Below are positions 5,310 through 57,135 of a stretch of DNA of 64,000 bases, piece after piece (the first letter of the stretch is position 1; every line of letters begins with the position of its first letter). The notes under the pieces were generated by a model, which saw only the letters and a program-made list of their open reading frames with translations, made no database searches and was not told the origin of the DNA. Source of the DNA: Zhihengliuella sp. ISTPL4. Its GTDB lineage: Bacteria > Actinomycetota > Actinomycetes > Actinomycetales > Microbacteriaceae. Both the position numbers and the translations under genes were made by a program. The stretch covers positions 2,448,727-2,512,726 of the forward strand of contig NZ_CP025422.1 in NCBI RefSeq assembly GCF_002848265.1. The letters run 5' to 3'.

Positions 5310-5368
5310 TTCGAATCGCCCGATTGGCTGTGTTTCCGGCCGAAATGGGACCATTCAGGCGATTCGAA
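5310..5368. repeat. 59-bp inverted-repeat element, copy 1
   Basis: The ends are TTCGAATCGC and GCGATTCGAA, with a central TTTCCGGCCGAAA. It is one of four copies of exactly 59 bp in this window. It fills the gap between convergent genes, 5 bases from each stop codon, and the symmetry extends outward through CTGACCC and GGGTCAG, which contain both stops. It probably acts as a bidirectional terminator, whatever its origin. Confidence 0.75.
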
Positions 5369-5373
5369 AGGGG

Positions 5374-6570
5374 TCAGTGGTGCTCCGGGAGCACCGGGGA
5401 CGACCAACCGGGGTCGCGGCCGAGGTGGGCGGCGCGGGAGACCGAGGCGGAGCCGTAGCGGTCGCGGAGCGTGTCGAGCACGGTGTCGAGGCGGGACTCG
5501 TCACCCCAGTCGATCGGCAGCTCGGGCGCCACGTTGTCGGCCGCGTCCAGCTGGGTGAACGAGAGGCCGAGCAGGGTGATCCCACGGCCACTGATCTCCG
5601 GCTGCGCCGCGGCGAGGAGCGTCCGGGCGACCGCGAGCAGCAGGGCCGTGCGGTCGGTCGGCGCCCGCAGCGACCGGGAACGGGTGGCCTTCGCGAAGTC
5701 ACCGAAACGCAGCCGCAGCACCACCGTGCGGCACACGCGGTCGCCGTCGCGGAGACGCCGCGCGAGCCGGTCGACGATCTGGGTGAGGATGACATCGAGC
5801 TCGTCGGCCGACCGGGGACGGACACCGAGCGCCCGCTGCGACCCGATCGATCCCCGGCGCCTGGTCGTGTCCACGGGACGCGGATCCCGCAGGCGGGCGA
5901 GCGCATGGACGTGCGCTCCGGTCGCCTTTCCGAGCATCCGCTCCGCGGTCGCGGCCTCGAGCTCCGCGAGCTCGCCGACCGTGCGGATGCCGTAGCGGTG
6001 CAGCTTCTCCGCCGTCACCGCGCCGACGCCCCACAGCCGCTCGACGGGGAGCGGCAGCAGGAACTCCTCCTCCCGGTCGGGCTCGACGACGAGGAGTCCG
6101 TCGGGTTTGCTCACCGCGCTCGCGACCTTCGCGAGGAACTTCGTGCGGGCGACGCCGACCGAGATCGCCAGGCCCGCCTCGGCGCGCACGCGCTCCCGCA
6201 ACCGGACGGCGATGGCCTCGGGAGTGCCGGCGATGCGCCGCAGGCCGCCGACCTCGAGGAACGCCTCGTCGATGGAGAGTCCTTCCACGAGAGGGGTGGT
6301 GTCGCGGAAGATGCGGAAGACGTCTTTGCTGGCCGCGGAGTAGGCTTCCATCCGCGGCGGCACGACGACGGCGTCGGGGCACAGCTCTCGCGCCTGCCGG
6401 CCGCCCATCGCCGTGCGGACGCCCCGCGCCTTCGCCTCGTAGCTCGCGGCCAGCACGACCCCGCCGCCGACGATCACCGGACGCCCGCGGAGCTCCGGCG
6501 CATCACGCTGCTCAACCGAGGCGTAGAACGCATCGAGATCGGCGTGCAGAACCGTCGCTTCCCCGCGCAT
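5374..6570 (-). CDS. dinB: DNA polymerase IV (Y-family translesion polymerase)
   Basis: The 398-residue product carries the Y-family signatures: LHADLDAFYASVEQRD at residues 8-23 with the first catalytic Asp, YEAKARGVRTAMGG in the fingers, and SIDEAFLEV with the second acidic pair at about residue 103. The helix-hairpin-helix (LWGVGAVTAEKL) and little-finger regions follow. It extends mismatched or lesion-stalled primers and is usually part of the DNA-damage response. The ATG at 6570 is chosen over an in-frame ATG 33 bases upstream because it directly precedes the conserved strand. No obvious LexA box stands in the upstream 200 bases. It is unrelated to its sugar-metabolism neighbours. Confidence 0.93.
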   Translation of the reverse strand: MRGEATVLHADLDAFYASVEQRDAPELRGRPVIVGGGVVLAASYEAKARGVRTAMGGRQARELCPDAVVVPPRMEAYSAASKDVFRIFRDTTPLVEGLSIDEAFLEVGGLRRIAGTPEAIAVRLRERVRAEAGLAISVGVARTKFLAKVASAVSKPDGLLVVEPDREEEFLLPLPVERLWGVGAVTAEKLHRYGIRTVGELAELEAATAERMLGKATGAHVHALARLRDPRPVDTTRRRGSIGSQRALGVRPRSADELDVILTQIVDRLARRLRDGDRVCRTVVLRLRFGDFAKATRSRSLRAPTDRTALLLAVARTLLAAAQPEISGRGITLLGLSFTQLDAADNVAPELPIDWGDESRLDTVLDTLRDRYGSASVSRAAHLGRDPGWSSPVLPEHH

Positions 6571-6774
6571 CCCGTTCTCCCGTCGACGAGCGGATCGTCG
6601 CACGGACCGGGGACATCAGGGGCTCTTTCGGGACCTCGACCGCACCGCGGCGCTGCGTCTCCGCAAGGCACTAGGTTTAGACACGTCCAGTCGGACGCGG
6701 GGGTGTTCACCGGGGACCTTGAGTCCCATCGCATTGTCGCGCGCCCCCGCACATACACAGCATCAGGAGAGCCC

Positions 6775-7659
6775 ATGACCAACACCCCGCCGCCGCCCGG
6801 CACACCCGAATCGTCGCAGCAGCCCGAGTATGCGGCGCCGGCCCAAACGGGATACCCCACCGCCCAGCCGCCCGGCCCGGTGGAAACGAAGCAGCGCAAC
6901 GTCCTCGGCATCATCGCCCTGATCGTGGCTGCTGTCGGCTTCATCTTTGCCTGCATTCCCGGAGCACTCATCGTGGGCTGGGTCCTCCTGCCCATCGGAT
7001 TCATCCTCGGCCTCGTATCCCTCTTCCTGAAGGGGAAGGTGAAGTGGCAGGGAATCGCCGCCATCATCGTCTCGGTGGTCGGTACCGTGGTCGGCGTCGT
7101 CGTCTTCACCGCTGTCGTGGCGACCGCCTTCACCGATTCGTTCGGTGGCTCCGACGTCGAGGTCGGAGAGCCGACGTCGACCAGCGAAGAAGCGAACACC
7201 GCCGACGAAGAGGAAGCCCCCGCGGCTGAGCAAGGCACGCGCGAGAACCCGCTCCCCCTGGGCACGCCTCTCTCCGCTGACGAGTGGACCGTGACCATCA
7301 ACTCGGTGACTCTGAACGCTCAGGATCAGCTCCTCGCGGCATCGGACCTCTACAACGAGGCCCCGGACGCCGGAACCGAGTACATCATCATCAACTACAC
7401 CATCCAGTACACCGGCAAGGACGCAGAAGGTGGAATGCCAGCGTTCGTCGGAGTCGACTACGTCACCGCCGACGGAAACACGGTGAACCCGCTCGACAAG
7501 ATGGTGATGGCATCGGACCCGATCGACCTCATGTCACCGCTGTACGAGGGCGCCTCCGTCTCCGGTAACAACGCTATGCAGGTGCCGACCCCGGCCGACG
7601 GAGTCCTCGCTGTCCGCCCCGGCATGGTGGCTGACAAGGTCTTCGTCGCCATCCAGTGA
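6775..7659 (+). CDS. DUF4190/DUF4352-type membrane-anchored protein
   Basis: The 294-residue product has a Pro/Gln/Tyr-rich cytoplasmic N-terminus (1-40), then three hydrophobic segments at about 45-65, 67-85 and 98-118 with a DUF4190-like layout. An acidic Ser/Thr/Glu linker (125-160) leads to an exported beta-rich domain (about 165-294) resembling DUF4352, an immunoglobulin-like fold seen in many Gram-positive lipoproteins and membrane proteins. The role is unknown. AGGAGAG precedes the ATG at 6775. The 204-base region upstream holds no other gene I can support. A strong hairpin terminator follows the stop. Confidence 0.8.
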   Translation: MTNTPPPPGTPESSQQPEYAAPAQTGYPTAQPPGPVETKQRNVLGIIALIVAAVGFIFACIPGALIVGWVLLPIGFILGLVSLFLKGKVKWQGIAAIIVSVVGTVVGVVVFTAVVATAFTDSFGGSDVEVGEPTSTSEEANTADEEEAPAAEQGTRENPLPLGTPLSADEWTVTINSVTLNAQDQLLAASDLYNEAPDAGTEYIIINYTIQYTGKDAEGGMPAFVGVDYVTADGNTVNPLDKMVMASDPIDLMSPLYEGASVSGNNAMQVPTPADGVLAVRPGMVADKVFVAIQ

Positions 7660-7674
7660 CCTGATCCCGTACGG

Positions 7675-7699
7675 AGGGCCGGGAGTTTCTCCCGGCCCT
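7675..7699 (+). terminator. Rho-independent-type hairpin
   Basis: AGGGCCGGGAG pairs with CTCCCGGCCCT around a TTT loop, followed by TCTC. It lies 16 bases after the stop of the DUF4352-like gene and also downstream of the convergent SDR, so it could serve both. Confidence 0.75.
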
Positions 7700-7738
7700 T
7701 CTCAGTATGCTCAGCGTCTCAGAACGCTCATGGAGCGG

Positions 7739-8542
7739 TCATGAAGTCGGCGGCTCGTCGAAGCGCTTCCGCAGAGCGGGGTCGAGGGCGATGTCGCCGA
7801 ACGACGCGGTCCACGCCCCGTCGACGGCGATGGACTGACCGGAGAGGTAGGGGGCCTCATCGGAGAGCAGGAACGCCGTCACCGCGGCGACCTCCTCCGC
7901 GCGGGCGATGCGTCCCATCGGCGGGCCCTCCGCGAGCAGCCGCTCCTCCGCCTCGGGGTCGGCGGCCCTGGCGATCTGTGCCTCCAGATGGGGAGTGCGC
8001 ACCCCGCCTGGCGCGACGGTGTTCGCCCGTATGCCCAATCCGCCATATGTCACCGCGACGCTGCGGCTCAGGGCGTCGATGCCGCCCTTCGTGAACTCGT
8101 AGGCGGCGTGGTCCACGAAGCTCGATCGACCGTGGATAGAGCCAATGTTCACGATCGCCCCAGGGATACCCTGGTCGACGAACGCGGAGACGGCCGTCGA
8201 GCAGCCCCAGAGGTAGCCGAAGCCGTTGATGTCGACGATCTCCCGCACGACCGTCTCGTCGAGCTCGTGCAGGGGCGTGCGCTTCGTGATGCCGGCGTTG
8301 TTGACCCACCCGGCCAGCGGAGCCCGGGCACGCGCCGCGGCGGCCGCCCGCTGATGGACACTGCGGTCGGAGGCGTCGCCGAGCACGACCTCGGCGACGA
8401 TGCCCTCCTCCACGGTCCCGGAGCCGGGCGAGCGTTCGAGCCCGACCACGATCCAGCCGTCGGCGGTGAGCCGCGCGGCCACCGCGCGGCCGATGCCCTT
8501 GCCGCTGCCGGTGACCACGACGCTGCGCGGGGAAGGTGTCAT
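7739..8542 (-). CDS. SDR-family oxidoreductase
   Basis: The 267-residue classical SDR has TGSGKGIG at about 11-18, NNAG at about 86-89, catalytic Ser in NIGSIHGRSS, AAYEFTKGG with Tyr and Lys, and SGQSIAVDGAW near the end. It is the last gene of the minus-strand operon SDR-dehydratase-SDR (10375 to 7739), one base after the dehydratase. In non-phosphorylative pathways two different SDRs act, one on the sugar and one on the 2-keto-3-deoxy acid. Two SDRs flanking a dehydratase match that need, but which is which is not visible. The long C-terminal tail (ALDPALRKRFDEPPTS) may contribute to substrate specificity. Confidence 0.9.
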   Translation of the reverse strand: MTPSPRSVVVTGSGKGIGRAVAARLTADGWIVVGLERSPGSGTVEEGIVAEVVLGDASDRSVHQRAAAAARARAPLAGWVNNAGITKRTPLHELDETVVREIVDINGFGYLWGCSTAVSAFVDQGIPGAIVNIGSIHGRSSFVDHAAYEFTKGGIDALSRSVAVTYGGLGIRANTVAPGGVRTPHLEAQIARAADPEAEERLLAEGPPMGRIARAEEVAAVTAFLLSDEAPYLSGQSIAVDGAWTASFGDIALDPALRKRFDEPPTS

Positions 8543-8543
8543 G

Positions 8544-9620
8544 TCAGTCCCTCTCGAATCGGAAGACGGCGGGATCGAGGCCGAAGCCGAGCCCCGGAGC
8601 CGTGGGGGGCGTGACGGTGCCGGCGAACTGCGGCCCGCCCGAGACGAACGAGGGTGCGGGGTCGTAGGGATTCACCCCGCGGGCGAAGGTCTCCACCTGG
8701 ATGCCGAGGTGGGCCGTGATCTCTGGGTACACGTGTCCGGACACCGGGACGCCGCGCTCCGCCGCCCAGGCGATGAGCTCACGCGCGGGGGTGATGCCGC
8801 CGATCGCCACGACGTCGAGGCGCAGCGCGTCGACCTCGCCGACCTCGACCAGAGCCCGGAGCACGGCGGGGTCGGTCACCTCGTCGCCGACCGCCACCGG
8901 CAGTCCGGTCTCCCGGCGGATCCGGGCCACGCCGGCCGCGTCCTCGGGGAGCAGCGGATCCTCCAGCCAGGCCAGGCGCGGGTCGCCCCACTGCGCGACC
9001 TCCGTCACGGCGGCCTCCGCGTCGGGCCAGCCGAAGCCCACGTCCACCACGAGTCCGGTCGAGGTGGGAAGCTCTGCGCCGAGGATCGCGAGCAGTTCGC
9101 GCATGTATGCCGGATCGGGAATGCGCGAGATCTTCACCTGCGCCCAGCCCTCCGCCTGCGCGAGCACCTCGTCCGCGACCTCCCGCGGCGGGCGCTGCGG
9201 AGACGGATACGCGGCGACGAGCATCCCCTCCCGCGCGGCGTCACCCGTACCGAGCAGGGTCCACAGCGGCACGCCGGCTCGACGGGCCGCGATGTCCCAC
9301 AGGGCAATGTCGACGAGACCGATCGCCCGCCGCACGAGTCCCACCCGTCCGACGATCGCACTGCCGCGGAGCATCCGGTCCCACGCGGTGGCCGGGTCGT
9401 CGGCGTCGAGCCCCACCGCGTGCGGCGCCACCAGGCGGTCGACGATCTCCGCCATCGGGGCCTCCCGCGACAGGCAGTAGGCGAGCCCGGTGGTGCCGTC
9501 GTCCGCCGTCACCTGCACCGCGGAATACTCCCGCCGCGTGACCGTCATCGCGCCGAGCTGCAGCGGAGCCGGAAGAGGCAGGACGGCGGTGGCCGTGTCG
9601 ATCCGGGCGACGGCGGTCAT
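8544..9620 (-). CDS. Enolase-superfamily (mandelate racemase/muconate lactonizing type) sugar-acid dehydratase
   Basis: The 358-residue protein has the capping domain and barrel of the mandelate-racemase subgroup. Barrel motifs in order are VKISR (Lys163), VVDVGFGW (metal ligand Asp193), WLEDPL (Glu220), GDEV (Glu247) and SGHVYPE (His296). The His plus three acidic metal ligands point to acid-sugar dehydration, removing water from an aldonate to give a 2-keto-3-deoxy acid. In the KxK motif of mandelate racemase the second Lys is replaced by Ser165. It overlaps the upstream SDR by 4 bases and is followed one base later by another SDR. The operon is under the TGCTATAGCA site at 10398. The exact substrate (fuconate, rhamnonate, galactonate or other) is not determined. 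Confidence 0.87.
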   Translation of the reverse strand: MTAVARIDTATAVLPLPAPLQLGAMTVTRREYSAVQVTADDGTTGLAYCLSREAPMAEIVDRLVAPHAVGLDADDPATAWDRMLRGSAIVGRVGLVRRAIGLVDIALWDIAARRAGVPLWTLLGTGDAAREGMLVAAYPSPQRPPREVADEVLAQAEGWAQVKISRIPDPAYMRELLAILGAELPTSTGLVVDVGFGWPDAEAAVTEVAQWGDPRLAWLEDPLLPEDAAGVARIRRETGLPVAVGDEVTDPAVLRALVEVGEVDALRLDVVAIGGITPARELIAWAAERGVPVSGHVYPEITAHLGIQVETFARGVNPYDPAPSFVSGGPQFAGTVTPPTAPGLGFGLDPAVFRFERD

Positions 9621-10375
9621 TCGGGCTTCTTCGCGAGGGGCACGCCGTAGTCCACCATGAACCCGCCGTCGACGTACAGGGTCTGGCCGTTCATGTAGCG
9701 CGACTGGTCCGAGACGAGGAAGCTCACGGCCGCGGCGATCTCACTCGCGTCGGCCAGGCGCTTCGCGGGGATGCGGGACAGGATCGTGTCCAGACTCAGC
9801 GTCCCCTGCTCCACACCCTGCCGGAACACCCCGGTGTCGACGTAGCCCGGGGCCACCGCGTTGACGCGCACCCCACGCGACGCCCACTCCGCTCCGGCCG
9901 TAGAGGTGAGTCCGATGACGGCGGCCTTGGTCGTGGCATACGGCGCCCGCCCCGCGGAACCCCGCGAGGAGATGGAGGAGATGTTGACGATACGGCCCTC
10001 GCCCCGGTCGAGCATGCGCTTCCCGGCGGCCTGGAGCGCGGAGAACACCCCGTGCAGGTTCACGTCCACGACCGCGGACCACTCGTCCCACGTGAGGTCT
10101 TCGATCCCGCGGTGGCGCTGGATGCCCGCGTTGTTCACGAGCACCTCGATGGGCCCGAGCTCCGCCTCGATCTCGCCGAAGACCCGGTCGACGGCGGCAT
10201 GGTCGGTGACGTCGAGCTCCCGCCACAGGATCCCGGCGGGGTTCTCGCCCGCGGTGAGCCCGGGGACGCGATCGGTCGCGACGACGAGGTAGCCGTCCGC
10301 GGAGAGTCGCTGTCCGATCTCCCAGCCGATGCCGGCCGAGCCTCCGGTGACGATGGCGACGGGGCGCGCGGTCAT
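9617..10375 (-). CDS. SDR-family oxidoreductase
   Basis: The 252-residue classical SDR has TGGSAGIG at about 10-17, NNAG at about 85-88, NISSISS, and PYATTKAA with the Tyr/Lys pair, ending GQTLYVDGGFMVDYG. It is probably the sugar or 2-keto-3-deoxy-sugar-acid dehydrogenase of the operon. It is the first gene of the operon, with GAGGAGAG 4 bases before the ATG. The operator TTGCTATAGCAA lies 23-34 bases upstream, so this transcript has a short leader, unlike the pair at 4133/4212. The stop overlaps the dehydratase start (ATGA). Confidence 0.9.
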   Translation of the reverse strand: MTARPVAIVTGGSAGIGWEIGQRLSADGYLVVATDRVPGLTAGENPAGILWRELDVTDHAAVDRVFGEIEAELGPIEVLVNNAGIQRHRGIEDLTWDEWSAVVDVNLHGVFSALQAAGKRMLDRGEGRIVNISSISSRGSAGRAPYATTKAAVIGLTSTAGAEWASRGVRVNAVAPGYVDTGVFRQGVEQGTLSLDTILSRIPAKRLADASEIAAAVSFLVSDQSRYMNGQTLYVDGGFMVDYGVPLAKKPE

Positions 10376-10397
10376 GTCTCTCCTCTACCTCGGGGAT

Positions 10398-10409
10398 TTG
10401 CTATAGCAA
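10398..10409 (-). promoter_or_regulatory. Palindromic operator TTGCTATAGCAA upstream of the SDR-dehydratase-SDR operon
   Basis: This is a perfect 12-bp palindrome with the same TGCTATAGCA core as at 4142, 4194 and 15540. On the minus strand TATAGC would serve as the -10 with transcription starting about 15 bases before the Shine-Dalgarno sequence. It is the likely binding site of the GntR/FCD protein at 15661. Confidence 0.65.
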
Positions 10410-10419
10410 GTCTATCCCG

Positions 10420-10478
10420 TTCGAATCGCGCAACTAGTTCGATTTCGGCCGGAAATGGAGCAAAGTGGGCGATTCGAA
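10420..10478. repeat. 59-bp inverted-repeat element, copy 2
   Basis: The ends are TTCGAATCGC and GCGATTCGAA; the centre is ATTTCGGCCGGAAAT, exactly at the midpoint. It lies 7 bases downstream of the ceramidase-like stop (10486) and 11 bases from the operator of the next operon, separating the two same-strand transcription units. Confidence 0.75.
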
Positions 10479-10485
10479 AGTCGAG

Positions 10486-11874
10486 CTACCCCAGCAGCCC
10501 GGCCACGACCGACACGGCGTGGGACTCCAGGAGCTCCAGGGCACCGGGAGCCAAGGGCGTCTGCCAGGCCTGGTAGGCGCCGCGGTCGTACGCCTCCCGG
10601 GTCGGGAGATACACGAACCCGGGACCGTTCGTGAGGTTCATCACCACGATCGGCGTCTGGGGGAACCGCTCCCGCAGGGTCGTCTGCAGCCGCGAGTAGG
10701 CCTCGCCCGGGTGCCCCACGATCACGGCGTCTCCGAGCCGCCACGCCCACACGGGGTGCGACACGGTCGGCCCCTCGATGTAGCCGTCACGGAGGTTCCG
10801 CGCCCGTCCGAGGCGTTCCTCCCGGGACCGGGGGTCGATGTCCTTCCACTCCTCGGCGAGCTCGTCCAGGGTGGGCAGGTCGCGCAGCGGCAGCTCGGCC
10901 GCCGAGACGACTCCCGCCGCCCCGTCGCCGCCGTCCGCGGGGGTCCCGGTCCAGATCGCGAGCGGAGCACCCGACTCGACGACACCATCCAGCGTCAGCT
11001 CCTCGCCCGGCACCGGAAGCCCGTCCAGGGCGGCGAGCACCGCGTGCCCGAGCGAACGTCCGTGCCGGTCGGCCACTGCGACGTCGCCGGTGTACTGCTC
11101 CCGCGGGGCCAGCTCCCCCGAGGCCCCCTGCACGAACAGGCACGGTGCACCGGTGGCGGCCTCCACGATCTCGCGCATCGCGCCGACGTAGTCCGGCGAC
11201 ACCTCCCGGTTCTGCCAGGCCAGGGTCGTCGGATGGCAGGCGTAGTTCACCAGCGTCGCCCGCACCTCCCCATCGATGCTGATCCGGCCGATGGTCACCG
11301 TGTCGTCGGCGGTGCCCCGGGGGTTGTAGCCGACGAGCGCGCGGCCGTCGAGGTCGAGCTCCCGTTCCGCCGCGAGGGTGCAGGTGCCCGTGGTCCACTC
11401 GATCAGTCCCGGTCGTGCGGCCTCCAGCGCCTCGCGACCGGCCGCGATACCCGCGGCAGCAAGAGCCTCCAGGTACCCGGGGATGAGCTCGCCGCCCGGC
11501 AGATGCGCATCCGCGGCGCAGAGCACGGCCCCGGCGTGGGTGTGCGAGAGCGAGAGCATGAGCTGATCGGGCTCGAGGCCCAGACCGTCGAGGATCGCCC
11601 CGCGCACGCCCTGCTCATCGGCGACCCGGCGCCACCAGGTGCCGTCGACGGCGAGCAGCACCCGCGGCCGCTCGTCCGCGGCCACCACGGCGAGCGCGGT
11701 CAGCTCGAACGGCCGGTGCGCCCCCTCGGAGCGCTCCCAGTCGGCCGGGCCCCAGTTCTTGGCGCGGATTCCGACGGGCGGTGTGATGTCGCGCCGGGCG
11801 ACGCCGATGCGCGCCCGTGTGCGGGGGATGCGGATGCGGTCTCCGAGGTGCGTCGCCGCTGCGGTGTCGTTCAC
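10486..11874 (-). CDS. Neutral/alkaline ceramidase N-terminal-domain-like hydrolase
   Basis: The 462-residue protein matches the bacterial family annotated as neutral/alkaline non-lysosomal ceramidase N-terminal domain. Support: IGVARRDITPPVGI at about residues 23-36, SLSHTHAGAVL with the His pair at about 109-119, and NYACHPTTL at about 210-218, plausible zinc ligands. True ceramidases are about 650-750 residues and secreted. This one is shorter, lacks the C-terminal Ig-like domain and shows no signal peptide, so it may be a cytoplasmic hydrolase or amidase of unknown substrate. The GTG start has GGGAGG 7 bases upstream. It lies 34 bases after the beta-helix gene and may share its transcript. 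Confidence 0.72.
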   Translation of the reverse strand: MNDTAAATHLGDRIRIPRTRARIGVARRDITPPVGIRAKNWGPADWERSEGAHRPFELTALAVVAADERPRVLLAVDGTWWRRVADEQGVRGAILDGLGLEPDQLMLSLSHTHAGAVLCAADAHLPGGELIPGYLEALAAAGIAAGREALEAARPGLIEWTTGTCTLAAERELDLDGRALVGYNPRGTADDTVTIGRISIDGEVRATLVNYACHPTTLAWQNREVSPDYVGAMREIVEAATGAPCLFVQGASGELAPREQYTGDVAVADRHGRSLGHAVLAALDGLPVPGEELTLDGVVESGAPLAIWTGTPADGGDGAAGVVSAAELPLRDLPTLDELAEEWKDIDPRSREERLGRARNLRDGYIEGPTVSHPVWAWRLGDAVIVGHPGEAYSRLQTTLRERFPQTPIVVMNLTNGPGFVYLPTREAYDRGAYQAWQTPLAPGALELLESHAVSVVAGLLG

Positions 11875-11908
11875 GCGTGATCCTCCCTGATATCCATGAT
11901 GCCGTCCG

Positions 11909-15510: not shown

Positions 15511-15539
15511 GACAACTCCCTCGTCATCGGTTGCGGGTT

Positions 15540-15557
15540 TTGCTATAGCATCTAGCA
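15540..15557 (-). promoter_or_regulatory. Best-conserved operator TTGCTATAGCATCTAGCA upstream of the MFS gene
   Basis: This carries the full motif, a perfect TGCTATAGCA core plus the TCTAGCA extension shared with 4142-4157. It lies in the 150-bp divergent region between the MFS transporter and the GntR regulator, the normal location for a regulator's main binding site. Confidence 0.68.
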
Positions 15558-15587
15558 CTGCGGCGCTCCTGTCTAGTCCCCGCCTCA

Positions 15588-15601
15588 TGCCATAGCATCG
15601 A
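15588..15601 (+). promoter_or_regulatory. Degenerate operator TGCCATAGCATCGA upstream of the GntR gene
   Basis: It differs from TGCTATAGCATCTA by two bases and lies 60 bases before the GntR start, 30 bases from the stronger site. It may allow autoregulation or cooperative binding across the divergent promoter. Confidence 0.45.
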
Positions 15602-15660
15602 CCGAGCGCAGGACCCTGCTCGACGAGCACCGGGCCGCGCGAGAGCGAGAAGGGCCCCGG

Positions 15661-16311
15661 ATGCGCAGCGTGTCGGATCAGAACATCGCCGAGCAGGTCG
15701 CGGACGAGATCCGGGCGGCGATCCACTCCGGGGAGCTCGCCCCCGGCGAGCGCCTCGTGGAGCGCAAGCTCGCGGACCGTCTCGGCGTCAGCCACATCCC
15801 CGTGCGGGAGGCCCTGACCCGGCTCGCCGAGGAGCGCCTCATCACCCGCGAGCCCCGCCGCGGCGCCCGCGTCGCCCAGCTCAGCGCGCAGGATCTGGAG
15901 GAGATCTCGAGCCTGCGAATCGTGCTCGAGCAGTTCATGGCGATCCGGGTGCAGGAGCGGTGGAGCGACGAGTCGGCTGCCCGGCTCGAGGCCATCATCC
16001 AGGCGATGGCGGATGCGGCTCCGGGCGACGTGGCCGAGGTCCTGCGCCAGGACCGCCTCTTCCACGAGACCCTCGCCGACCTCGCCGAGCACCGGTTCCT
16101 CGACGAGCTCAGCGCCCAGCTCCGCGGCCGGATCGCCGGCTTCATCCAGGCGGCCAATTCGGCTCTCGACCCCGCCGAGCAGGAGGAGCACGTGCGCAGC
16201 CACCAGCAGATCGTCGACGCGATCGCCACCGGCGATCCGGAGCAGGCGCGCGCCGTGATCGCCGAGCACGTGACCAGGGCCGTCCGCCGCATCACGCCGA
16301 CGGCCGAGTGA
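15661..16311 (+). CDS. GntR-family transcriptional regulator, FCD (FadR) subfamily
   Basis: The 216-residue product has an N-terminal winged helix (about 5-72: IAEQVADEIRAAIHSGELAPGERLVERKLADRLGVSHIPVREAL in pieces) followed by an all-helical FCD ligand domain (about 80-210) with FHETLADLAEH and two later His residues (SHQQI, AEHVTRAVRR) as candidate metal/ligand contacts. FCD regulators commonly sense sugar acids or other carboxylates and repress catabolic operons. It faces the MFS/beta-helix operon across a promoter bearing two copies of the TGCTATAGCA-type site. The same site stands before the dehydrogenase, SDR and dehydratase genes, so it is the likely local regulator. Its stop overlaps the SDR start (GTGA). 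Confidence 0.9.
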   Translation: MRSVSDQNIAEQVADEIRAAIHSGELAPGERLVERKLADRLGVSHIPVREALTRLAEERLITREPRRGARVAQLSAQDLEEISSLRIVLEQFMAIRVQERWSDESAARLEAIIQAMADAAPGDVAEVLRQDRLFHETLADLAEHRFLDELSAQLRGRIAGFIQAANSALDPAEQEEHVRSHQQIVDAIATGDPEQARAVIAEHVTRAVRRITPTAE

Positions 16312-18099: not shown

Positions 18100-18113
18100 C
18101 TCCACGGAGCCTC

Positions 18114-32106: not shown

Positions 32107-32165
32107 TTCGAATCGCGCACCTGGCGGCATCTCCGGCCGGAAGGGGGCCGTTCGGGCGATTCGAA
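32107..32165. repeat. 59-bp inverted-repeat element, copy 3
   Basis: The ends are TTCGAATCGC and GCGATTCGAA; the centre is TCCGGCCGGA. It begins 3 bases after the SDR stop. The corA leader transcript starts beyond it, so it separates two same-strand units. Confidence 0.75.
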
Positions 32166-32209: not shown

Positions 32210-32278
32210 ATGGCGATGTCCGACGATAGTAACGACGCCGCCCTCGCTGCGTCGCGCCTCCCCGCACACACGCGTTGA
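32210..32278 (+). CDS. Putative 22-residue leader peptide upstream of corA
   Basis: ATG at 32210 opens a short frame, MAMSDDSNDAALAASRLPAH then TR and a stop at 32276-32278, preceded by GGAAAGGTGG. An inner ATG at 32216 is the alternative start. It ends 119 bases before corA in an otherwise unexplained 232-base leader. It may be a regulatory upstream ORF controlling the transporter in cis. No homologue is known to me, and it could be a chance frame. Confidence 0.45.
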   Translation: MAMSDDSNDAALAASRLPAHTR

Positions 32279-48165: not shown

Positions 48166-48359
48166 GACTGCTCTCCCCATTCATCGCGTTCCGGCACGCA
48201 TCCGCGCACACGGAAGCCCCCGCCCCCTCAGGCGACCGCCGAGCACCCTTCGGGCAGGGTGGACTCGGTCCGGGCCTCCGCCAGCCTGCCGGTGCGCCGC
48301 GTCGAGCCCGGACCGAACCGGGAGAATTCACCCCGCCTTTTCACCCCGACCGCACGACG

Positions 48360-48389
48360 GAGGGCGCACCGGGATCCCGATGCGCCCTC
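48360..48389 (-). terminator. Hairpin terminator of the FtsX/LolD-type ABC operon
   Basis: GAGGGCGCA pairs with TGCGCCCTC around the inner palindrome CGGGATCCCG. It lies 15 bases after the FtsX-like stop. The remaining 170 bases up to the DUF11 start hold that gene's leader; I see no gene there. Confidence 0.7.
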
Positions 48390-48403
48390 ACGTGGTCGCG
48401 GGT

Positions 48404-50905: not shown

Positions 50906-51672
50906 CACCACTCCCCCAACGTGCTCATGCGATCCGTGATCTGCTGCGGGGTGCCGCCGTCGAGATGTCCGGCGAACGCCCCGTCGGCGAGGAAGATCAC
51001 CCGGTCGGCGTGCGAGGCCACCACCGGGTCGTGCGTGACGACCACAACGGTCTGGTGCAGCTCCTTCGCGGTGTGCGCGAGGAGGTCGAGGACCTGCTTT
51101 CCGGTGCGGGAATCCAGGGCGCCGGTGGGCTCGTCGCCGAACACGACGTGCGGTCGCGTGATGAGCGCCCTGGCGATCGCGACGCGCTGCTGCTGTCCGC
51201 CGGAGAGCTCAGCGGGGCGACGGTGGCGGCGGTCGGTGAGACCCACCGCGGCGAGCAGCGTCTCCAGCCAGCGATGATCCAGAGCCTGCCGGCCGAGGCG
51301 CAGCGGGAGGGTGATGTTGTCCTCCACGGTCAGGGCCGGAAGCAGGTTGTAGGCCTGGAACACGAACCCCACATGGTCGCGGCGGAAGGCCGTCAGCTGC
51401 CGGGGAGTGAGAGCGGAGATCTCGGTGCCGCCCAGGTGCACCGTGCCGCTGGTCGGGCGGTCGAGGCCCGCGGCGCTGTGCAGCAGCGTGCTCTTGCCCG
51501 AGCCGGACGGCCCCATGATCGCGGTGAACGAGCCCCGGGCGATGGCGAGGTCGATGCCGCGGAGCGCGGTCACCGTGGCGCTGCCGGAGCCGTAGGTCTT
51601 GACGAGGCCGCTGAGACGCAGGGCCTCGGCGGGGGCCGCTTCGACGAGCGGCGGGGAGGAGAGGGAGGTCAT
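50905..51672 (-). CDS. LolD/MacB-type ABC transporter ATP-binding protein
   Basis: The 255-residue ATPase has Walker A GPSGSGKST (about 54-62), Q-loop FVFQAYNLLP, signature LSGGQQQRVAIARAL (about 156-170), Walker B VVFGDEPTGALD and switch His in VVTHDP. The DEPTGALD form and length are typical of MacB/LolD/BceA ATPases that energise FtsX-type permeases such as the one at 48404. It diverges from the histidine kinase with a 108-base control region containing a TATACC-like -10. Confidence 0.94.
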   Translation of the reverse strand: MTSLSSPPLVEAAPAEALRLSGLVKTYGSGSATVTALRGIDLAIARGSFTAIMGPSGSGKSTLLHSAAGLDRPTSGTVHLGGTEISALTPRQLTAFRRDHVGFVFQAYNLLPALTVEDNITLPLRLGRQALDHRWLETLLAAVGLTDRRHRRPAELSGGQQQRVAIARALITRPHVVFGDEPTGALDSRTGKQVLDLLAHTAKELHQTVVVVTHDPVVASHADRVIFLADGAFAGHLDGGTPQQITDRMSTLGEW

Positions 51673-51780
51673 GCTTCGACGCTAGGAAAGCCGCGGGCCC
51701 ACCCCCATCCCGCCCGGTCCCGCATCGATGGTGGAGCTGGCTATACCGCGAGCTGAGGGGCGCTCCGGCAGACTTGCAGG

Positions 51781-53025
51781 GTGAAGGACGGATGGATGCG
51801 CCGCTGGATGCGCGGATGGCTGCGTGACGCGCGCTTCCTCGGGATCGAGCTCGGCGCCTCCATCGTCTCCCTCGCCCTGTTCTGCGTGGTCATGGTGCTG
51901 CTGCCGCTCATGCTCATCACCGGCGGGGTGCTGTTGCTTCCGCAGGTCGTGCAGGTGCTGCACGCCTGGAGCGACCGGGCGCGACGACGGATCGGACGAC
52001 GACGCGGGGAGGATCTGCCGCCGCTCGGGCGCACGCTGCCGAGGGGCGCGACGATCGACGAGCGTCTGCGCTTCGCCTTCTCCCGCGCCACCGCCCGCGA
52101 GGCGCTGTGGCTCACGGTCCACGCTTTCCCGGTGATGTGGGTGTCGCTCCTGACGCTCGCACTGCCGCTGTCTGCCGTCAACACGCTCGGGGTGACCTGG
52201 TACTGGCAGTTCGCGCCCGCCGACGACCCGGTCGGGTCGCCGTACCCGGTCACGTCGTGGGAGTTGGCGTGGACCATGCCGCTCGTCGCCCTCGCCTACG
52301 CGGTGGCCGCGGTCTTCCTCGTTCCGGCGGTCGCTCGGCTCGTGGCCTTCGTCTCGGCGAAGCTGCTCGCGACGCCGCAGAAGTCCCGCCTCGCCGCCCG
52401 GGTCGATGCGCTGACGCTCAGTCGCGCGGCCGCCCTCGATGCCCACGCCGCCGAGCTCCGTCGCATCGAGCGCGATCTGCACGACGGCGCCCAGAACCGC
52501 CTGGTGAACGTCGTGATGATGTTGGGGATCGCGGAGCGCGCCCAGGAGACCGGCGGCGAGGTGCTCGAACCGCTGCGGCGCGCGCAGGACGCCGCCGCGG
52601 ATGCTCTCGCCGGCCTCCGCCGCACCGTGCACGACATCTATCCGCCGATCCTCGACGAACTGGGTCTCGAGGGGGCGCTCGCCTCGCTCGCCGGGCGCAG
52701 CGTCGTCCCCTGCACGCTCGAAGCCACGGACGTCGGGCGGGTGCCGGCGGCCGTCGAGTCCGCGAGCTACTTCGTGGTCGCGGAGGCTCTGACCAACGTC
52801 AACAAGTACAGCGCCGCGACGCGGGCCGCGGTGCGGGTCGAGCGGGACGGCGAACTGCTCCACATCGCGGTGGAGGACGACGGGGTCGGCGGCGCCGTCG
52901 AGCGACCGGGCGGGGGTTTCGCGGGGATCCGGCGCCGTGTCGAGGCGTTCGAGGGCACGATGGAACTGTCGAGTCCCGCCGGGGGACCCACCATCCTGCG
53001 GACGGAGCTGCCATGCGGATCGTGA
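51781..53025 (+). CDS. Sensor histidine kinase, NarL/HisKA_3 type
   Basis: The 414-residue product has membrane helices at about 25-55 and near 115-185, then HisKA_3 with ERDLHDGAQNRLVNVVMML (His234). An HATPase domain follows: AEALTNVNKYS as N-box, EDDGVGG and GGGFAGIRRRVEAFEG as G-boxes. Short extracellular loops fit kinases that sense through or beside a transporter. The GTG at 51781 has a weak ribosome site; ATG 51796 is a possible start. It overlaps the response regulator by 13 bases and faces the ABC exporter, its probable target or sensor partner. Confidence 0.92.
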   Translation: MKDGWMRRWMRGWLRDARFLGIELGASIVSLALFCVVMVLLPLMLITGGVLLLPQVVQVLHAWSDRARRRIGRRRGEDLPPLGRTLPRGATIDERLRFAFSRATAREALWLTVHAFPVMWVSLLTLALPLSAVNTLGVTWYWQFAPADDPVGSPYPVTSWELAWTMPLVALAYAVAAVFLVPAVARLVAFVSAKLLATPQKSRLAARVDALTLSRAAALDAHAAELRRIERDLHDGAQNRLVNVVMMLGIAERAQETGGEVLEPLRRAQDAAADALAGLRRTVHDIYPPILDELGLEGALASLAGRSVVPCTLEATDVGRVPAAVESASYFVVAEALTNVNKYSAATRAAVRVERDGELLHIAVEDDGVGGAVERPGGGFAGIRRRVEAFEGTMELSSPAGGPTILRTELPCGS

Positions 53026-53651
53026 TCGCGGAGGACGACACCCTGCTCCGGGAGGGCCTCGCGCTGCTGCTGCGCAGTGAGGGCTTCGACGTGATCGGCG
53101 CCGTTCCCGACGCGGAGGGTTTCCTCGCCCTGCTCGATGAGGCGGATGCCGCCGTGCTCGACGTGCGGATGCCGCCGACGTTCACCAGCGAGGGGCTCAA
53201 GGCCGCGGCCGAGGCGAGAGCCCGCCGCCCGGGCTTCCCGGTGCTCGTGCTCTCGGCGTACGTCGAGGACCGTTACGCCGGGGAGCTCCTCGCGGCGGGG
53301 GCGAACGGGCTCGGGTACCTGCTGAAGGAGCGGGTGGGCAAGGTCGCCGCGTTCGTCGACGCGCTGCGCCGCGTGGCCGCCGGTGGCACCGTCATGGACC
53401 CCGAGGTCATCTCGCAGCTCCTGAGTCGCCGTCGCGCCGACGACCCCGTGCAGACCCTCACCCCGCGCGAACGGGAAGTGCTCGGCCTCATGGCGGAGGG
53501 CCTGGACAACACCACCATCGCCGCGCGGCTGTTTGTGACGGAGACCGCGGTGAGCAAGCACATCGGCAACATCTTCGCGAAGCTCGGCCTCGCCTCCAGC
53601 GACAGCGGCCACCGTCGCGTCCTCGCCGTCCTCGCCTATCTCCGCAGCTGA
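53013..53651 (+). CDS. LuxR-type response regulator
   Basis: The 212-residue NarL/FixJ-type regulator has a receiver domain with the acidic pair EDD (7-9), phosphoacceptor Asp50 in VLDVRMPP and conserved Lys in YLLKER (about 103). The LuxR helix-turn-helix is LTPREREVLGLMAEGLDNTTIAARLFVTETAVSKHIGNIF (in pieces, about 148-190). It is the cognate partner of the overlapping kinase gene and probably acts on the divergent ABC exporter operon. The long upstream frame in the same phase is a shadow of the kinase gene. Confidence 0.93.
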   Translation: MRIVIAEDDTLLREGLALLLRSEGFDVIGAVPDAEGFLALLDEADAAVLDVRMPPTFTSEGLKAAAEARARRPGFPVLVLSAYVEDRYAGELLAAGANGLGYLLKERVGKVAAFVDALRRVAAGGTVMDPEVISQLLSRRRADDPVQTLTPREREVLGLMAEGLDNTTIAARLFVTETAVSKHIGNIFAKLGLASSDSGHRRVLAVLAYLRS

Positions 53652-53686
53652 CGCCTCCGCTCTGGTGCTCGGCACGCTTCGATGCC

Positions 53687-54469
53687 ATGCTGACCGGGAT
53701 GAAGCGCTCCACCACGATCACCGCCGCCGTCGTCGCCGTCGCCGTCGCCGGCCTGGTCGTCGCGGCCGCTCCTGTCGTGGTCAGCGCCGCGTCCGCCGTG
53801 TTCGACGTCACCTCGTGGGCGTCGGAGCGCTTCGCCGCCGCACCGTCACCGACCCCCACCCCGGCGGCCCTGAAAGCCGAGGACACGGCCGAGGACGAAC
53901 TCGTCGACCTGGGTGACGGCATCAGCGTTCCCGCCGGCGGACCGGGGGACTGCACCACGAACGCGTTCATCAGCATCGGCAGCGACGACGGCTCCGCGCA
54001 TCATGCGAAGCTTCTCGGCGAGCTCGTCGACATGGGCACGTCAGAATTGGCGCGCGGTCCCGTCACCCGGGATGCGGACGGGCGGATCTTCTCCTACGAG
54101 GTCCAGTCCGGCGACAGTCTGATCGCGATCGGCGAGCGCTTCTGCGTCGACTACGTCACTGTCGGCAGCTTCAACCACGTGCGCGGCTTCGAGCCGATCG
54201 CACCCGGCGACGTCCTCTACCTCCGCCCGGACCCGGCCCTTCCGTTCGTCGACATCTACGCGCCGTACAACGCCCCGCCCGGCTCGTCCACCATCCCGTA
54301 CTACGACGGCGTCGCCGCGTTCTCGACCGCCGTCGCCACCGCCGACCTGGGTGCCGCGCGGTGGCTGTGGCAGCGCCTGGAGAAGGACATGCCTCCGGAG
54401 ACCGCTGCCGTGATCACGCAGGCTTTGCGCGACGACGACCTCCCCCTTCTCCGCCGCCTCTTCCCCTAG
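53687..54469 (+). CDS. Exported LysM-like domain protein
   Basis: The 260-residue product has a signal/anchor helix (TITAAVVAVAVAGLVVAAAPVVV in pieces, about 8-30), a Pro/Thr linker and a LysM-like block FSYEVQSGDSLIAIGERFCVD ... GFEPIAPGDVLYLRP (about 138-182). The C-terminal region is of unknown fold (WLWQRLEKDMPPETAAVI). LysM binds peptidoglycan or chitin-like glycans, so a wall-associated location is likely. ATG 53699 (MKRSTT) is an alternative start. It lies 35 bases after the response regulator and may be in its transcript. A terminator-like repeat cluster follows. Confidence 0.78.
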   Translation: MLTGMKRSTTITAAVVAVAVAGLVVAAAPVVVSAASAVFDVTSWASERFAAAPSPTPTPAALKAEDTAEDELVDLGDGISVPAGGPGDCTTNAFISIGSDDGSAHHAKLLGELVDMGTSELARGPVTRDADGRIFSYEVQSGDSLIAIGERFCVDYVTVGSFNHVRGFEPIAPGDVLYLRPDPALPFVDIYAPYNAPPGSSTIPYYDGVAAFSTAVATADLGAARWLWQRLEKDMPPETAAVITQALRDDDLPLLRRLFP

Positions 54470-54495
54470 CCCATCCCGCTCCCCCTCTTCCCGCT

Positions 54496-54571
54496 GAGAC
54501 CCCGGGTTGTCGTCGACACCCCGGGGTCTTCGCGTCGCCACCCGGGGGTCTCGCCGCGCACCCGGGGTCTC
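54496..54571 (+). repeat. Cluster of four ACCCGGGGTC-type units, terminator-like
   Basis: GAGACCCCGGGT (54496-54507) is followed by ACCCCGGGGTC (54518), ACCCGGGGGTCTC (54540) and ACCCGGGGTCTC (54560). The first and last are inverted; the others are near-direct copies. Alternative hairpins are possible. It stands between the LysM-like stop (54469) and the PadR operators. Confidence 0.6.
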
Positions 54572-54597
54572 GGCGAAGAAGAGGGATGAGGAAGTTC

Positions 54598-54666
54598 AGT
54601 ATTCGGTGTTGCTAAGTACCGGTACTCAGTGTTACTTTGTACCGGTACCCAGCAACACTGAGTACC
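54598..54666. promoter_or_regulatory. Three abutting 23-bp PadR-type operators
   Basis: Units 54598-54620, 54621-54643 and 54644-54666 are each 23 bp. The second and the reverse complement of the third begin GGTACTCAGTGTT and end GTACC; the first is a diverged copy (AGTATTCGGTGTTGC ... GTACC). The third is inverted, so units 2 and 3 form a 13-bp inverted repeat. The array ends 25 bases before the padR start, where a promoter should lie, and is probably the autoregulatory site of the operon. Confidence 0.75.
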
Positions 54667-54691
54667 TAACCGAGAAGGAAAGGAGGGGACG

Positions 54692-55042
54692 ATGGGCAAG
54701 CAGATGACCGAGATGCTCAAGGGCACCCTGGAGGGCATCGTTTTGGCCCTCCTCGCCGAGCAGCCGGCCTACGGATACGAGATCACCACCCGGCTGCGCG
54801 AGCACGGCTTCACCGACACCGCCGAGGGCACCGTCTACGCCCTGCTGGTCAGGATCGAGCAGAAGAAGCTCGTCGACGTCGAGAAGGTGCCGAGCGAGAA
54901 GGGTCCGCCCCGCAAGGTCTACACCCTGAACGCGCAGGGCCGACAGGAGCTGGCGGAGTTCTGGACCACCTGGGACTTCCTCCGGACGCACATCGAACGA
55001 CTCAACACCACCACCACGAACACCCCGAACGAGGAGAACTGA
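54692..55042 (+). CDS. PadR-family transcriptional regulator
   Basis: The 116-residue product starts KGTLEGIVLALLAEQPAYGYEITTRLREHGF (about 9-39 in pieces), the PadR winged-helix signature, with EGTVYALLVRIEQKKLVDVEK as the wing and GPPRKVYTLNAQGRQELAEF. The C-terminal dimerisation helix is short, so it belongs to PadR subfamily 2-like proteins. AGGAGGGG precedes the ATG. It heads a tight operon with DUF1048 and an ABC-2 transporter and should repress it by binding the 54598-54666 operators until a ligand, often a toxic compound exported by the pump, is bound. Confidence 0.94.
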   Translation: MGKQMTEMLKGTLEGIVLALLAEQPAYGYEITTRLREHGFTDTAEGTVYALLVRIEQKKLVDVEKVPSEKGPPRKVYTLNAQGRQELAEFWTTWDFLRTHIERLNTTTTNTPNEEN

Positions 55043-55043
55043 C

Positions 55044-55415
55044 ATGGCCGCCAAGTGGATCGAAGCGCTCACCGGATCGCTCGAGCAGAAGAAGCAGTAC
55101 AAGCAGGCGAAGGCGCGGATCGAGGCTCTGCCGGAGCCCTACCGCACGGTCGCCAACGCCCAGCATCGCTACACCATGTACTACGGGGGGATCACCGACG
55201 GGGACACCCTCGTGCAGATCTTCCTCGACCTCGCCGATCTGTGGGAGCGCGCCGCAATCGACCGCACCCCGATCGACGACATCATCGGCGACGACCCCGT
55301 CGAGTTCGCCGAGAACTACGCCGAGGCCTACGGCGGGACGCAGTGGGTCGACAAGGAGCGCGCGCGGCTGAAGAAGGCGGTCGCGGAGGCGAAGAAGAAG
55401 GAGGACGAGTCATGA
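55044..55415 (+). CDS. DUF1048-family protein
   Basis: The 123-residue helical protein contains YKQAKARIEALPEPYRTVANAQHRYTMYYGG in pieces (about 19-50) and FLDLADLWERAAIDRTPIDDIIGDDPVEFAENYAEAY in pieces (about 57-95), matching DUF1048, a small partner protein commonly encoded between PadR regulators and ABC transporters. Its function is unknown; adaptor or regulatory roles have been suggested by context only. It starts 1 base after padR and overlaps the ATPase by 4 bases. Confidence 0.88.
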   Translation: MAAKWIEALTGSLEQKKQYKQAKARIEALPEPYRTVANAQHRYTMYYGGITDGDTLVQIFLDLADLWERAAIDRTPIDDIIGDDPVEFAENYAEAYGGTQWVDKERARLKKAVAEAKKKEDES

Positions 55416-56236
55416 CGACGCCAGCCCTCTCGGTGCAGGGCATCGAGAAGTCCTACAAGGATCTGCACGTGCTGCGCGGCGTCGACTTCGAGGTGGAGCG
55501 GGGATCGATCTTCGCCCTCCTCGGGTCGAACGGCGCCGGCAAGACCACCATGGTGCGCATCCTCTCCACGCTGCTGAAGGCGGATGCCGGCACGGCGACG
55601 GTGCAGGGCATCGACGTCGCCGCGAATCCCCTCGGCGTTCGGGAGAAGATCAGCCTCACCGGGCAGTTCGCCGCGGTCGACGAGATCCTCACCGGGCGCG
55701 AGAACCTCGTGCTCGTCGCGAAGCTGCGACACCTGTCCGACCCCGGCGCGGTGGCCGATCGGCTCCTCGCGCGTTTCCGACTCACCGACGCCGGAAGCCG
55801 CAAGGTCGGTACCTACTCCGGCGGCATGCGTCGCCGGCTCGACATCGCGATGAGCCTGGTCGGCGACCCCGAGGTCATCTACCTCGACGAGCCGACCACG
55901 GGCCTCGACCCGGAATCCCGCATCGAGGTGTGGGACGTGGTGAAGGAGCTCGCAAGCAGTGGCACGACCGTCCTGCTCACCACGCAGTACCTCGATGAGG
56001 CGGAGCAGCTGGCCGACCGCATCGCGATCCTGCACGAGGGCCGCATCATCGCGAACGACACCCTCGCCGGACTGAAGCGGCTGCTCCCGCCCGCGAAGGT
56101 CGAGTACGTCGAGAAGCAGCCCAGCCTCGAGGAGATCTTCCTCACCCTCATCGGCCCCCCTTCGACGGGCTCAGGGACCCAGGCGGACTCAGGGACCCAG
56201 GCGGGGACCCAGATTCAGAGAGGAGACGCCGCATGA
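55412..56236 (+). CDS. ABC-2 type transporter ATP-binding protein (DrrA-like)
   Basis: The 274-residue ATPase has Walker A GSNGAGKTT (about 40-48), signature YSGGMRRRLDIAMSL (about 136-150), Walker B VIYLDEPTTGLD and the switch region LLTTQYLDEAEQLADR, typical of drug/antibiotic exporters such as DrrA. The segment after LEEIFLTLIG is unusual: GPPSTGSGTQADSGTQAG, then TQ, encoded by REP-like sequence at 56156-56211 rather than a conserved domain. ATGA overlaps couple it to DUF1048 and the permease. Confidence 0.93.
   Translation: MTTPALSVQGIEKSYKDLHVLRGVDFEVERGSIFALLGSNGAGKTTMVRILSTLLKADAGTATVQGIDVAANPLGVREKISLTGQFAAVDEILTGRENLVLVAKLRHLSDPGAVADRLLARFRLTDAGSRKVGTYSGGMRRRLDIAMSLVGDPEVIYLDEPTTGLDPESRIEVWDVVKELASSGTTVLLTTQYLDEAEQLADRIAILHEGRIIANDTLAGLKRLLPPAKVEYVEKQPSLEEIFLTLIGPPSTGSGTQADSGTQAGTQIQRGDAA
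56156..56211 (+). repeat. REP-like sequence inside the ABC ATPase coding region
   Basis: It contains CCCTTCGACGGGCTCAGGGA then CCCA, with two shortened copies (ACTCAGGGACCCA, GGGGACCCA). The same sequence, in the same reading frame, ends the ProV-like ATPase (61876-61953). Here it encodes PSTGSGTQ repeats at the C-terminus. Confidence 0.7.
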
Positions 56237-57000
56237 CCACGCACTTCGCCGCCGACACGGCGACGCTCACCGGCCGCTCGATGCGGCACATCTTCCGCAG
56301 CCCCGACACGATCATCACCACGGCGGTCACTCCGATCGCGCTGATGCTCCTGTTCGTGTACGTCTTCGGCGGTGCCCTCCAGCAGAGCACCGGCGCCGAG
56401 AACTACGTGAACTATCTCCTCCCGGGCATCCTGCTCATCGCGATCGCATCGGGCATCGCCTACACGGCCTTCCGGCTCTTCACCGATATGCAGAGCGGCA
56501 TCTTCGAGCGGTTCCACTCCATGCCGATCGCCCGGTCGAGCGTGCTGTGGGCCCACGTGCTGACGTCTCTCACGGCGAACGCCATCACCCTCGCGATCAT
56601 CTTCGGGGTCGGGTTCCTGATGGGCTTCCGCACCGGGGCGAGCGTCTGGGCCTGGCTCGGAGTGATCGGCATCCTGATGCTGTTCACCCTGGCACTCACC
56701 TGGCTGGCGATCATCGCGGGTCTGAACGCGAAGACGGTCGACGGCGCGAGCGCCTTCTCGTATCCGCTGATCTTTCTCCCGTTCATCAGCTCGGCGTTCG
56801 TGCCGACCGACACCATGCCGGCACCGGTGCAGTGGTTCGCCGAGAATCAGCCGGTGACCTCGATCGTCAACTCCATCCAGGCGCTGTTCGCGGGGGAGCC
56901 GGTCGGGTCCGACATCTGGGTCGCTCTCGCCTGGTGCGTCGGGATCCTCGTGGTCGCCTACGTGTTCGCGATCATCTCGTACCGAAAGAAGGTCAGCTGA
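56233..57000 (+). CDS. ABC-2 type transporter permease (DrrB-like)
   Basis: The 255-residue protein has six hydrophobic segments. MRHIFRSPDTIITTAVTPIALMLLFVYVFGG forms the first in pieces, the cytoplasmic start TLTGRSMRH is typical of DrrB-like permeases, and the ABC-2 motif region includes PLIFLPFISSAFVPTDTMP. It should form the exporter channel with the ATPase at 55412. The substrate is probably a hydrophobic or toxic compound by family habit. The start overlaps the ATPase stop; a hairpin terminator follows 20 bases after the stop. Confidence 0.92.
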   Translation: MTTHFAADTATLTGRSMRHIFRSPDTIITTAVTPIALMLLFVYVFGGALQQSTGAENYVNYLLPGILLIAIASGIAYTAFRLFTDMQSGIFERFHSMPIARSSVLWAHVLTSLTANAITLAIIFGVGFLMGFRTGASVWAWLGVIGILMLFTLALTWLAIIAGLNAKTVDGASAFSYPLIFLPFISSAFVPTDTMPAPVQWFAENQPVTSIVNSIQALFAGEPVGSDIWVALAWCVGILVVAYVFAIISYRKKVS

Positions 57001-57019
57001 TCGACGCCCAGCGAGACGG

Positions 57020-57057
57020 AACGCTCCGACCGGGGACTCTTCCCCGGCCGGGGCGTT
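57020..57057 (+). terminator. Hairpin terminator of the PadR/ABC operon
   Basis: A 17-base left arm (from AACGCTCCGACC) pairs with GGCCGGGGCGTT at 15 of 17 positions around a CTCT loop, followed by TCG. It sits 20 bases after the permease stop. Confidence 0.7.
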
Positions 57058-57076
57058 TCGCCGCGCTCGGCCGCCG

Positions 57077-57135
57077 TTCGAATCGCCCGATCGGCTCCAT
57101 CCGGCCCGGATCTGGAGCAAGGGCCGCGACTCGAA
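57077..57135. repeat. 59-bp inverted-repeat element, copy 4
   Basis: The ends are TTCGAATCGC and GCGACTCGAA (one mismatch); near the centre is ATCCGGCCCGGAT. It ends one base before the stop of the LMF-like gene and lies between convergent transcription units, next to the hairpin at 57020. Confidence 0.72.

Follow-up and report, generated by a model that had tools for sequence, protein, structure and literature searches.

Here we report a family of palindromic elements of 59 bp, four copies of which lie in a stretch of 64,000 nt on contig NZ_CP025422.1 of Zhihengliuella sp. ISTPL4 (hereafter the window). On balance, the evidence favours a REPIN-like element whose partner is an AbiEi/Vsr-like nuclease and not a RAYT, the one enzyme family to which populations of the REPIN type have been tied in the literature. 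Elements lie on both sides of the gene for this nuclease in five genomes, which belong to two genera; the loci number three or more, and the flanking elements are in each genome's own dialect. The genome that contains the window is a single contig of 3,529,629 bp, whose best relatives by a window protein belong to Microbacterium. The literature searched contained no description of this palindrome family. Other genomes and loci are cited below by our handles (G and L numbers).

Anatomy, dialects and conservation of the element

The original prediction, made from the window alone, placed four copies next to stop codons. The copies exist where it put them, and independent gene calls reproduced its distances to the stops (5 and 5, 7, 3, and 1 bp). 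Copies 1-3 have the exact form TTCGAATCGC-N39-GCGATTCGAA, a pattern absent from 100 dinucleotide shuffles of the window. The features are:

Copy 1: 5310..5368, 59 bp, 5 bp from each of two convergent stops (SnoaL-like protein and DNA polymerase IV)
Half-site of copy 1: 5310..5331, + strand, about 20-22 bp, with the inverted half-site at 5347-5368 (other copies alike)
Copy 2: 10420..10478, 59 bp; the minus-strand gene 10486-11874 stops 7 bp away, next start at 44 bp
Copy 3: 32107..32165, 59 bp; an SDR gene stops 3 bp away, and a corA gene follows the copy at 232 bp
Copy 4: 57077..57135, 59 bp, right end with one mismatch; a lipase-maturation-factor-like gene stops 1 bp away, with the convergent stop of an ABC-2 permease at 76 bp

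The neighbours of these copies are ordinary genes, among them 10486-11874, which has no Pfam or NCBIfam family. No Rfam family reached its cut-off in the window.

The genome-wide pattern search proposed with the prediction returned 25 places with two 10-bp ends exactly 59 bp apart (at most three end mismatches), and no place with the reversed pattern. From the 25 copies we made a sequence profile that tolerates insertions and deletions (R1). It brought in ten more places at E below 0.001, of which two measure 60 bp, one measures 58 bp and seven are partial; three of the partial matches (2708520, 3457489 and 2981857) are 59 bp long once their decayed ends are counted. One pair of copies is fused (3044311/3044356). 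All 33 distinct exact half-sites in the retrieved stretches of this genome were paired, and no unpaired one was found there.

A copy spans 59 bp and is made up of a loose centre between two half-sites, each of about 20 bp, in inverted orientation. Positions 1-10 are near-invariant, the main exception being A or G at position 6, and the consensus is weaker over positions 11-24, where either CGATTGG or CACTTTG occurs, with a choice that is largely independent between the two halves of a copy. The interior had been described as variable, which holds for the centre but not for the rest of each half, where a weaker genome-specific consensus extends to about position 24; the near-central GGCC also noted is not a family feature, as positions 25-30 vary. 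The interior halves differ at a mean of 7.6 of 19 positions within an element and 9.0 between elements, and within this genome their pairing beyond column composition is modest (z of 2.2 for Watson-Crick pairs and 2.95 with G-U pairs). Predicted hairpin energies range from -18 to -53 kcal/mol, and a few copies are near-perfect palindromes. Because the halves differ, choose their alternatives independently and pair modestly in the interior, the element looks like two recognition half-sites inverted at a fixed spacing more than a strictly paired stem. The flanks beyond the 59 bp had no locus-specific pairing (3 of 29 loci were dropped as not fitting 59 bp).

The ends form genome-specific dialects. 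They read TTCGAGTCGCATGA in both halves in G021, TTCGAATCGCGCAA in G083 and TTCGAATCGCGC[GA]A in G066, the sets being largely consistent inside each genome, and leave-one-out classification assigned 72 of 78 elements to the right genome among four (Microbacterium sp. LCT-H2 was excluded as too near the window's genome). One metagenome-assembled genome has TTCGAGTAGC on both sides. A second end type, YTCCGGTCGC, has a comparable layout of 58-60 bp (some lengths counted by eye); in M. oxydans NBRC 15586, M. algeriense and strain MYb54 it is found at some of the sites where other genomes carry the first type. R1 matched 50 of 149 Microbacterium genomes at E 0.01, the window's genome included, and 38 below 0.001, with one to at least about 18 copies per matching genome (among at most the best 37 candidates per genome, where each palindrome counts twice). 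By end matching, the best element in each of 29 other genomes is 59 bp long, save three of 58 bp.

Across the Microbacteriaceae, R1 had matches in 9 of 299 genomes, 3 of them Microbacterium, and those outside the genus were marginal. A structure model from 50 elements (R2) matched 15 of 249 genomes, two of which are Microbacterium; the palindromes fitted at 17 distinct R2 loci measure 55-75 bp, 12 of them 57-61 bp, with ends such as TCGAGTTGCCGCGAATGG, and the places listed include five in G290, three in G249 and two in G325. By their layout, a partial likeness in sequence and, in G290, the partner gene as well, these dyads appear to be related to the Microbacterium element. One query each of phages, plasmids and viral contigs returned no element.

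The original prediction also called for a comparison of orthologous loci. Twelve gene ends beside copies of the window's genome were searched in eight named relatives, which gave 60 orthologous stretches at ten sites. The element is present in LCT-H2 at 9 of 9 sites and clearly present at 5 of 51 in the other seven relatives, a count that includes neither a doubtful case (L205; four end mismatches, 58 bp) nor one of the second end type (L204). At site 597303 the convergent genes lie 5-6 bp apart in M. oxydans NBRC 15586 and M. algeriense, and at site 2364338 the relatives have empty gaps of 10-16 bp; the element therefore came or went as a block, a whole unit. Other sites in the relatives hold palindromes of other families. 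The LCT-H2 orthologue of copy 1 has two differences and untouched ends; at the site of copy 2 the gap is shorter in most relatives and in some holds a palindrome with other ends.

Where the element stays in place, its ends are conserved far beyond the interiors, which bears out the suggestion of a palindrome kept by function. Among 25 orthologous copy pairs of the window's genome and LCT-H2, 22 were used (in three, one copy was not 59 bp); differences affect 29 of 440 end sites and 126 of 858 other sites (p=1.2e-5), and per-position divergence tracks within-genome variability (Spearman 0.61). End sites off the consensus number 28 in the copies of the window's genome and 15 in those of LCT-H2. 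At a beta-glucosidase/LacI locus compared in eight genomes (gene names read from the sequences, without family search), the ends differ by 5.9% per site, the interiors by 32.6%, and the LacI-like gene by 43.8% at its silent third positions.

The nuclease gene between elements

In four Microbacterium genomes, at two loci, two elements enclose a gene whose product combines an AbiEi-like front with a Vsr-like nuclease end, and a gene of the same family, at 35% identity, lies between two elements of another dialect in another genus (G290). In the window's genome the gene is gone at the orthologous place, apparently by deletion between the flanking elements. The C-terminal domain of the partner protein is modelled as a Vsr/EDxHD fold; D262, E273 and H279 are invariant in 40 homologues and are putative catalytic residues. 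The PADLOC model for AbiEi matched one of four partner proteins weakly (E 0.023), a search of PDB sequences returned no relative at E 0.1, and plasmids and phages yielded no partner nuclease.

When 237 neighbour proteins of the copies were clustered by BLAST, most of the recurring neighbours came from orthologous loci, the exception being the nuclease. Neighbours in other genera (37 of 47 listed plus 8 window genes; first 25 of 68 families) belong to ordinary families. The two elements that flank the nuclease gene in G021 (C1:382187 and 383312; L327 2188-2246 and 3313-3371) are in direct orientation, differ at 2 of 59 bases and have a common left flank; one looks like a recent copy of the other.

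The partner protein may bind the paired ends as a dimer through its AbiEi-like front; a dimer reading both ends is suggested because the fixed spacing, the independent halves and the dialects would fit it. Its nuclease part would cut DNA. Element, gene and element would together form the autonomous unit, and single elements would be dependent copies that enter gaps via break repair, a route proposed because the nuclease fits it. Copies would persist mainly behind stops because that space is dispensable, and the window's genome would have lost the gene at one place, its copies now eroding. A bolder proposition, which we regard as conceivable and put forward tentatively, is that dyads of fixed length, copied by a fusion nuclease of the AbiEi-Vsr kind, make up a class of bacterial mobile element that uses none of the known types of transposase; in such a class, cutting and break repair would probably be the copying route. 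If it is true, the specificity of dyad sites and nuclease would shift in step between species of the Microbacteriaceae. The same anatomy with an unrelated nuclease suggests that domestic pairs of palindrome and enzyme arose more than once, with different chemistry, and the dialects, the two-sided flanking and the natural gene loss make the pairing directly testable.

REPINs have paired REP ends that form hairpins, and their spread is ascribed to RAYTs with REPIN clusters beside them (excerpts of PMC3116915). The 59-bp element shares with them a pair of conserved ends in inverted orientation, a spacer that is less conserved but nearly constant in length, hairpin potential, intergenic location, several end types per genome and a partner gene with elements beside it (same excerpts). 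REPs lie mostly between convergent and unidirectional genes, near stops (excerpts of PMC3733652). The element differs from REPINs in its AbiEi/Vsr-like partner in place of a Y1 transposase, its length of 59 bp, its clustering around dnaA and its occurrence in Actinobacteria; it also lacks the GTAG/CGTC foot tag of the REP superfamilies (PMC3733652), its end forms including TTCGAATCGC, TTCGAGTCGC and YTCCGGTCGC. The earlier idea of spread by a REP-type system thus survives as regards build and behaviour (conserved ends in pairs, a constant length, dialects, and presence or absence at a site) but not for the enzyme: the RAYT/IS200 family PF01797, which matched in 5 of 14 reference genomes used as a control, occurs in 1 of 149 Microbacterium genomes and in none of the 50 with the element. 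This sole Y1 transposase (G041:C15:20980-21342; L153) is in a genome without an R1 match. From Vsr and Vsr-like (EDxHD) homing endonucleases such as I-Bth0305I, the partner protein differs in its fusion to an AbiEi-like front and its place between palindromes, and from AbiEi antitoxins in the fusion of the AbiEi-like front to a nuclease-like domain.

Several points weigh against this pairing of element and nuclease. Binding and cutting by the partner protein are predictions. Foldseek gave no match to the partner protein at E <= 0.001 (best 0.051), and the Pfam DUF559 scores of the partner proteins are borderline (19.4-21.9 bits, against 20.6). The nuclease loci were chosen for holding an element, so that one flank is present by construction. 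Other genes occasionally lie between close elements as well (596070/597303 and 2943346/2944670 in the window's genome, and an alcohol dehydrogenase in G124), although none of these recurred at another locus among the neighbours compared. The element lists of G083 and G069 contain no pair about 1.1 kb apart (the gene itself was not searched there), and no target duplication was evident by eye at the orthologous gaps. The copies at the beta-glucosidase/LacI locus were found via their ends, so that decayed copies are under-represented and survivorship may inflate the conservation of the ends. Across genomes the interior halves covary strongly (z=7.4), which leaves room for a hairpin function, although dialects could explain this too. 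The clustering around dnaA is not accounted for by an element spread by a nuclease.

Position beside stops and around dnaA

Among the 28 elements of the window's genome with two called neighbours, 23 have a stop within 12 bp; 11 lie in convergent, 13 in tandem and 2 in divergent gaps, and 2 were called inside a gene. Convergent gaps hold 11 of the 26 intergenic elements, and among the window's gene pairs 7 of 55 converge. Elements between tandem genes lie closer to the stop than to the start in 12 of 13 cases here and in 24 of 25 in other genomes; with 20 bp subtracted on the start side, these become 11 of 13 (p=0.022) and, weakly, 17 of 25 (p=0.11). Because this correction weakens the bias in the other genomes, tolerance of insertions at such places may account for part of the adjacency to stops. 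The original prediction had named chance-level frequency, variable length and a lack of stop enrichment as results that would speak against it, and none of them was found.

The same placement would suit a sequence-conserved bidirectional 3'-end element, whose long hairpin ends transcription or blocks exonucleases and for which the nuclease is a passenger. We consider this unlikely, although the stop adjacency, the excess of convergent gaps, the hairpin energies and the covariation across genomes all fit it, and palindromes of other families fill some of the same convergent gaps in relatives. The suggestion of a terminator holds for hairpin potential and position, but there is no U-tract (of the 400 bases in the 8-bp flanks of 25 copies, 44 are T), and some tandem copies leave just 14-40 bp to the next start. 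Moreover, the ends are more conserved than pairing requires, double changes at paired positions between the window's genome and LCT-H2 are not in excess (13, against 11.1 when shuffled), and a 3'-end role does not explain the clustering around dnaA. A comparable class of actinobacterial terminator would be the TRIT motif of Mycobacterium tuberculosis, reportedly a conserved structured motif enriched at gene ends and attributed to the RNIE work of Gardner et al. in 2011. By this description TRIT may resemble the 59-bp element; excerpts of PMC3526491 mention the TRIT model without its sequence.

Homology to the mycobacterial F6 small RNA, which lies between the convergent genes fadA2 and fadE5 (excerpts of PMC8557902) and whose Rfam family RF01791 is a near-perfect palindrome of 57 nt, was considered and remains no more than a lead. 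An element in another genus (L306) scored 45.2 bits over its full length, under the cut-off of 46, and RF01791 was matched neither in the other 25 loci scanned nor in the window; unrelated microRNA models also score on these hairpins.

Expressed in half-chromosome units, for which a uniform distribution gives 0.5, the mean distance to dnaA is 0.262 in the window's genome (34 copies, the fused pair counted once), 0.227 in G021 (23 copies), 0.256 in G083 (23 copies) and 0.222 in G069 (14 copies), with P of 9e-5 or less in each of these four genomes. The terminus-proximal 40% holds 3 of 34, 0 of 23, 1 of 23 and 0 of 14 copies, respectively, and the three copies of G034 are all within 0.34 of dnaA. 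MatP binds matS in the E. coli terminus. By analogy, a species-specific protein could bind the dyad at tens of origin-proximal loci as a chromosome-organising site, with restriction to one chromosomal region as in matS, around dnaA and not the terminus. The conservation of the ends in place would also agree with such a role, but it appears more doubtful still than a 3'-end element: many sites are empty in relatives, 99 of 149 genomes of the genus have no R1 match at E 0.01, and the origin bias may be a by-product of gene neighbourhoods that are perhaps merely more stable near the origin.

That the copies are decaying remnants of miniature inverted-repeat transposable elements (MITEs) or insertion sequences without a present role, flanking the nuclease by chance, would match their dispersal, inverted ends, patchy distribution and partial and fused copies (3044311/3044356) but is highly improbable, given ends that hold while silent positions of the neighbouring gene differ by 44% and the flanking of one gene family in five genomes, which come from two genera. 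No active DDE parent transposon with these ends was seen, and the duplication looked for by eye as a mark of MITEs was not found; the unit of element, nuclease and element may itself be the parent unit.

Other palindromes and features of the window

Microbacterium also contains other intergenic palindrome families, of 65-75 bp (L017-L031, L074-L089), in which each half consists of two direct copies of a short motif (AGTGCACGG, GAAGGAGA, TCGGGAGGAG, GCGGAGGAG). Examples are L020 1794-1867, L022 8552-8618, L088 13828-13900 and L030 13013-13084, and some of these palindromes are found in convergent gaps that the 59-bp element also uses. We also considered as a partner a DUF4379 protein, weakly DUF559-like at its end, whose gene is followed at 21-93 bp from the stop by palindromes of other families. 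This gene lacks a palindrome in L018 and L019, and the one in L020 is doubtful, so the link was dropped as perhaps due to chance. The DUF4379 genes with a nearby palindrome are:

L021 12161-13138
L022 8649-9626
L023 13591-14616
L030 10864-11841

The window has further long imperfect palindromes at 2225-2297 (73 bp), in the gap of a convergent gene pair, 54497-54570 (74 bp) and 54603-54661 (59 bp). A short open frame at 32210-32278 (MAMSDDSNDAALAASRLPAHTR), between copy 3 and the corA gene, could encode a leader peptide. The promoter of the SDR gene 9617-10375 contains an operator-like palindrome, TTGCTATAGCAA (10398-10409), which is kept at most of the orthologous Microbacterium loci shown.

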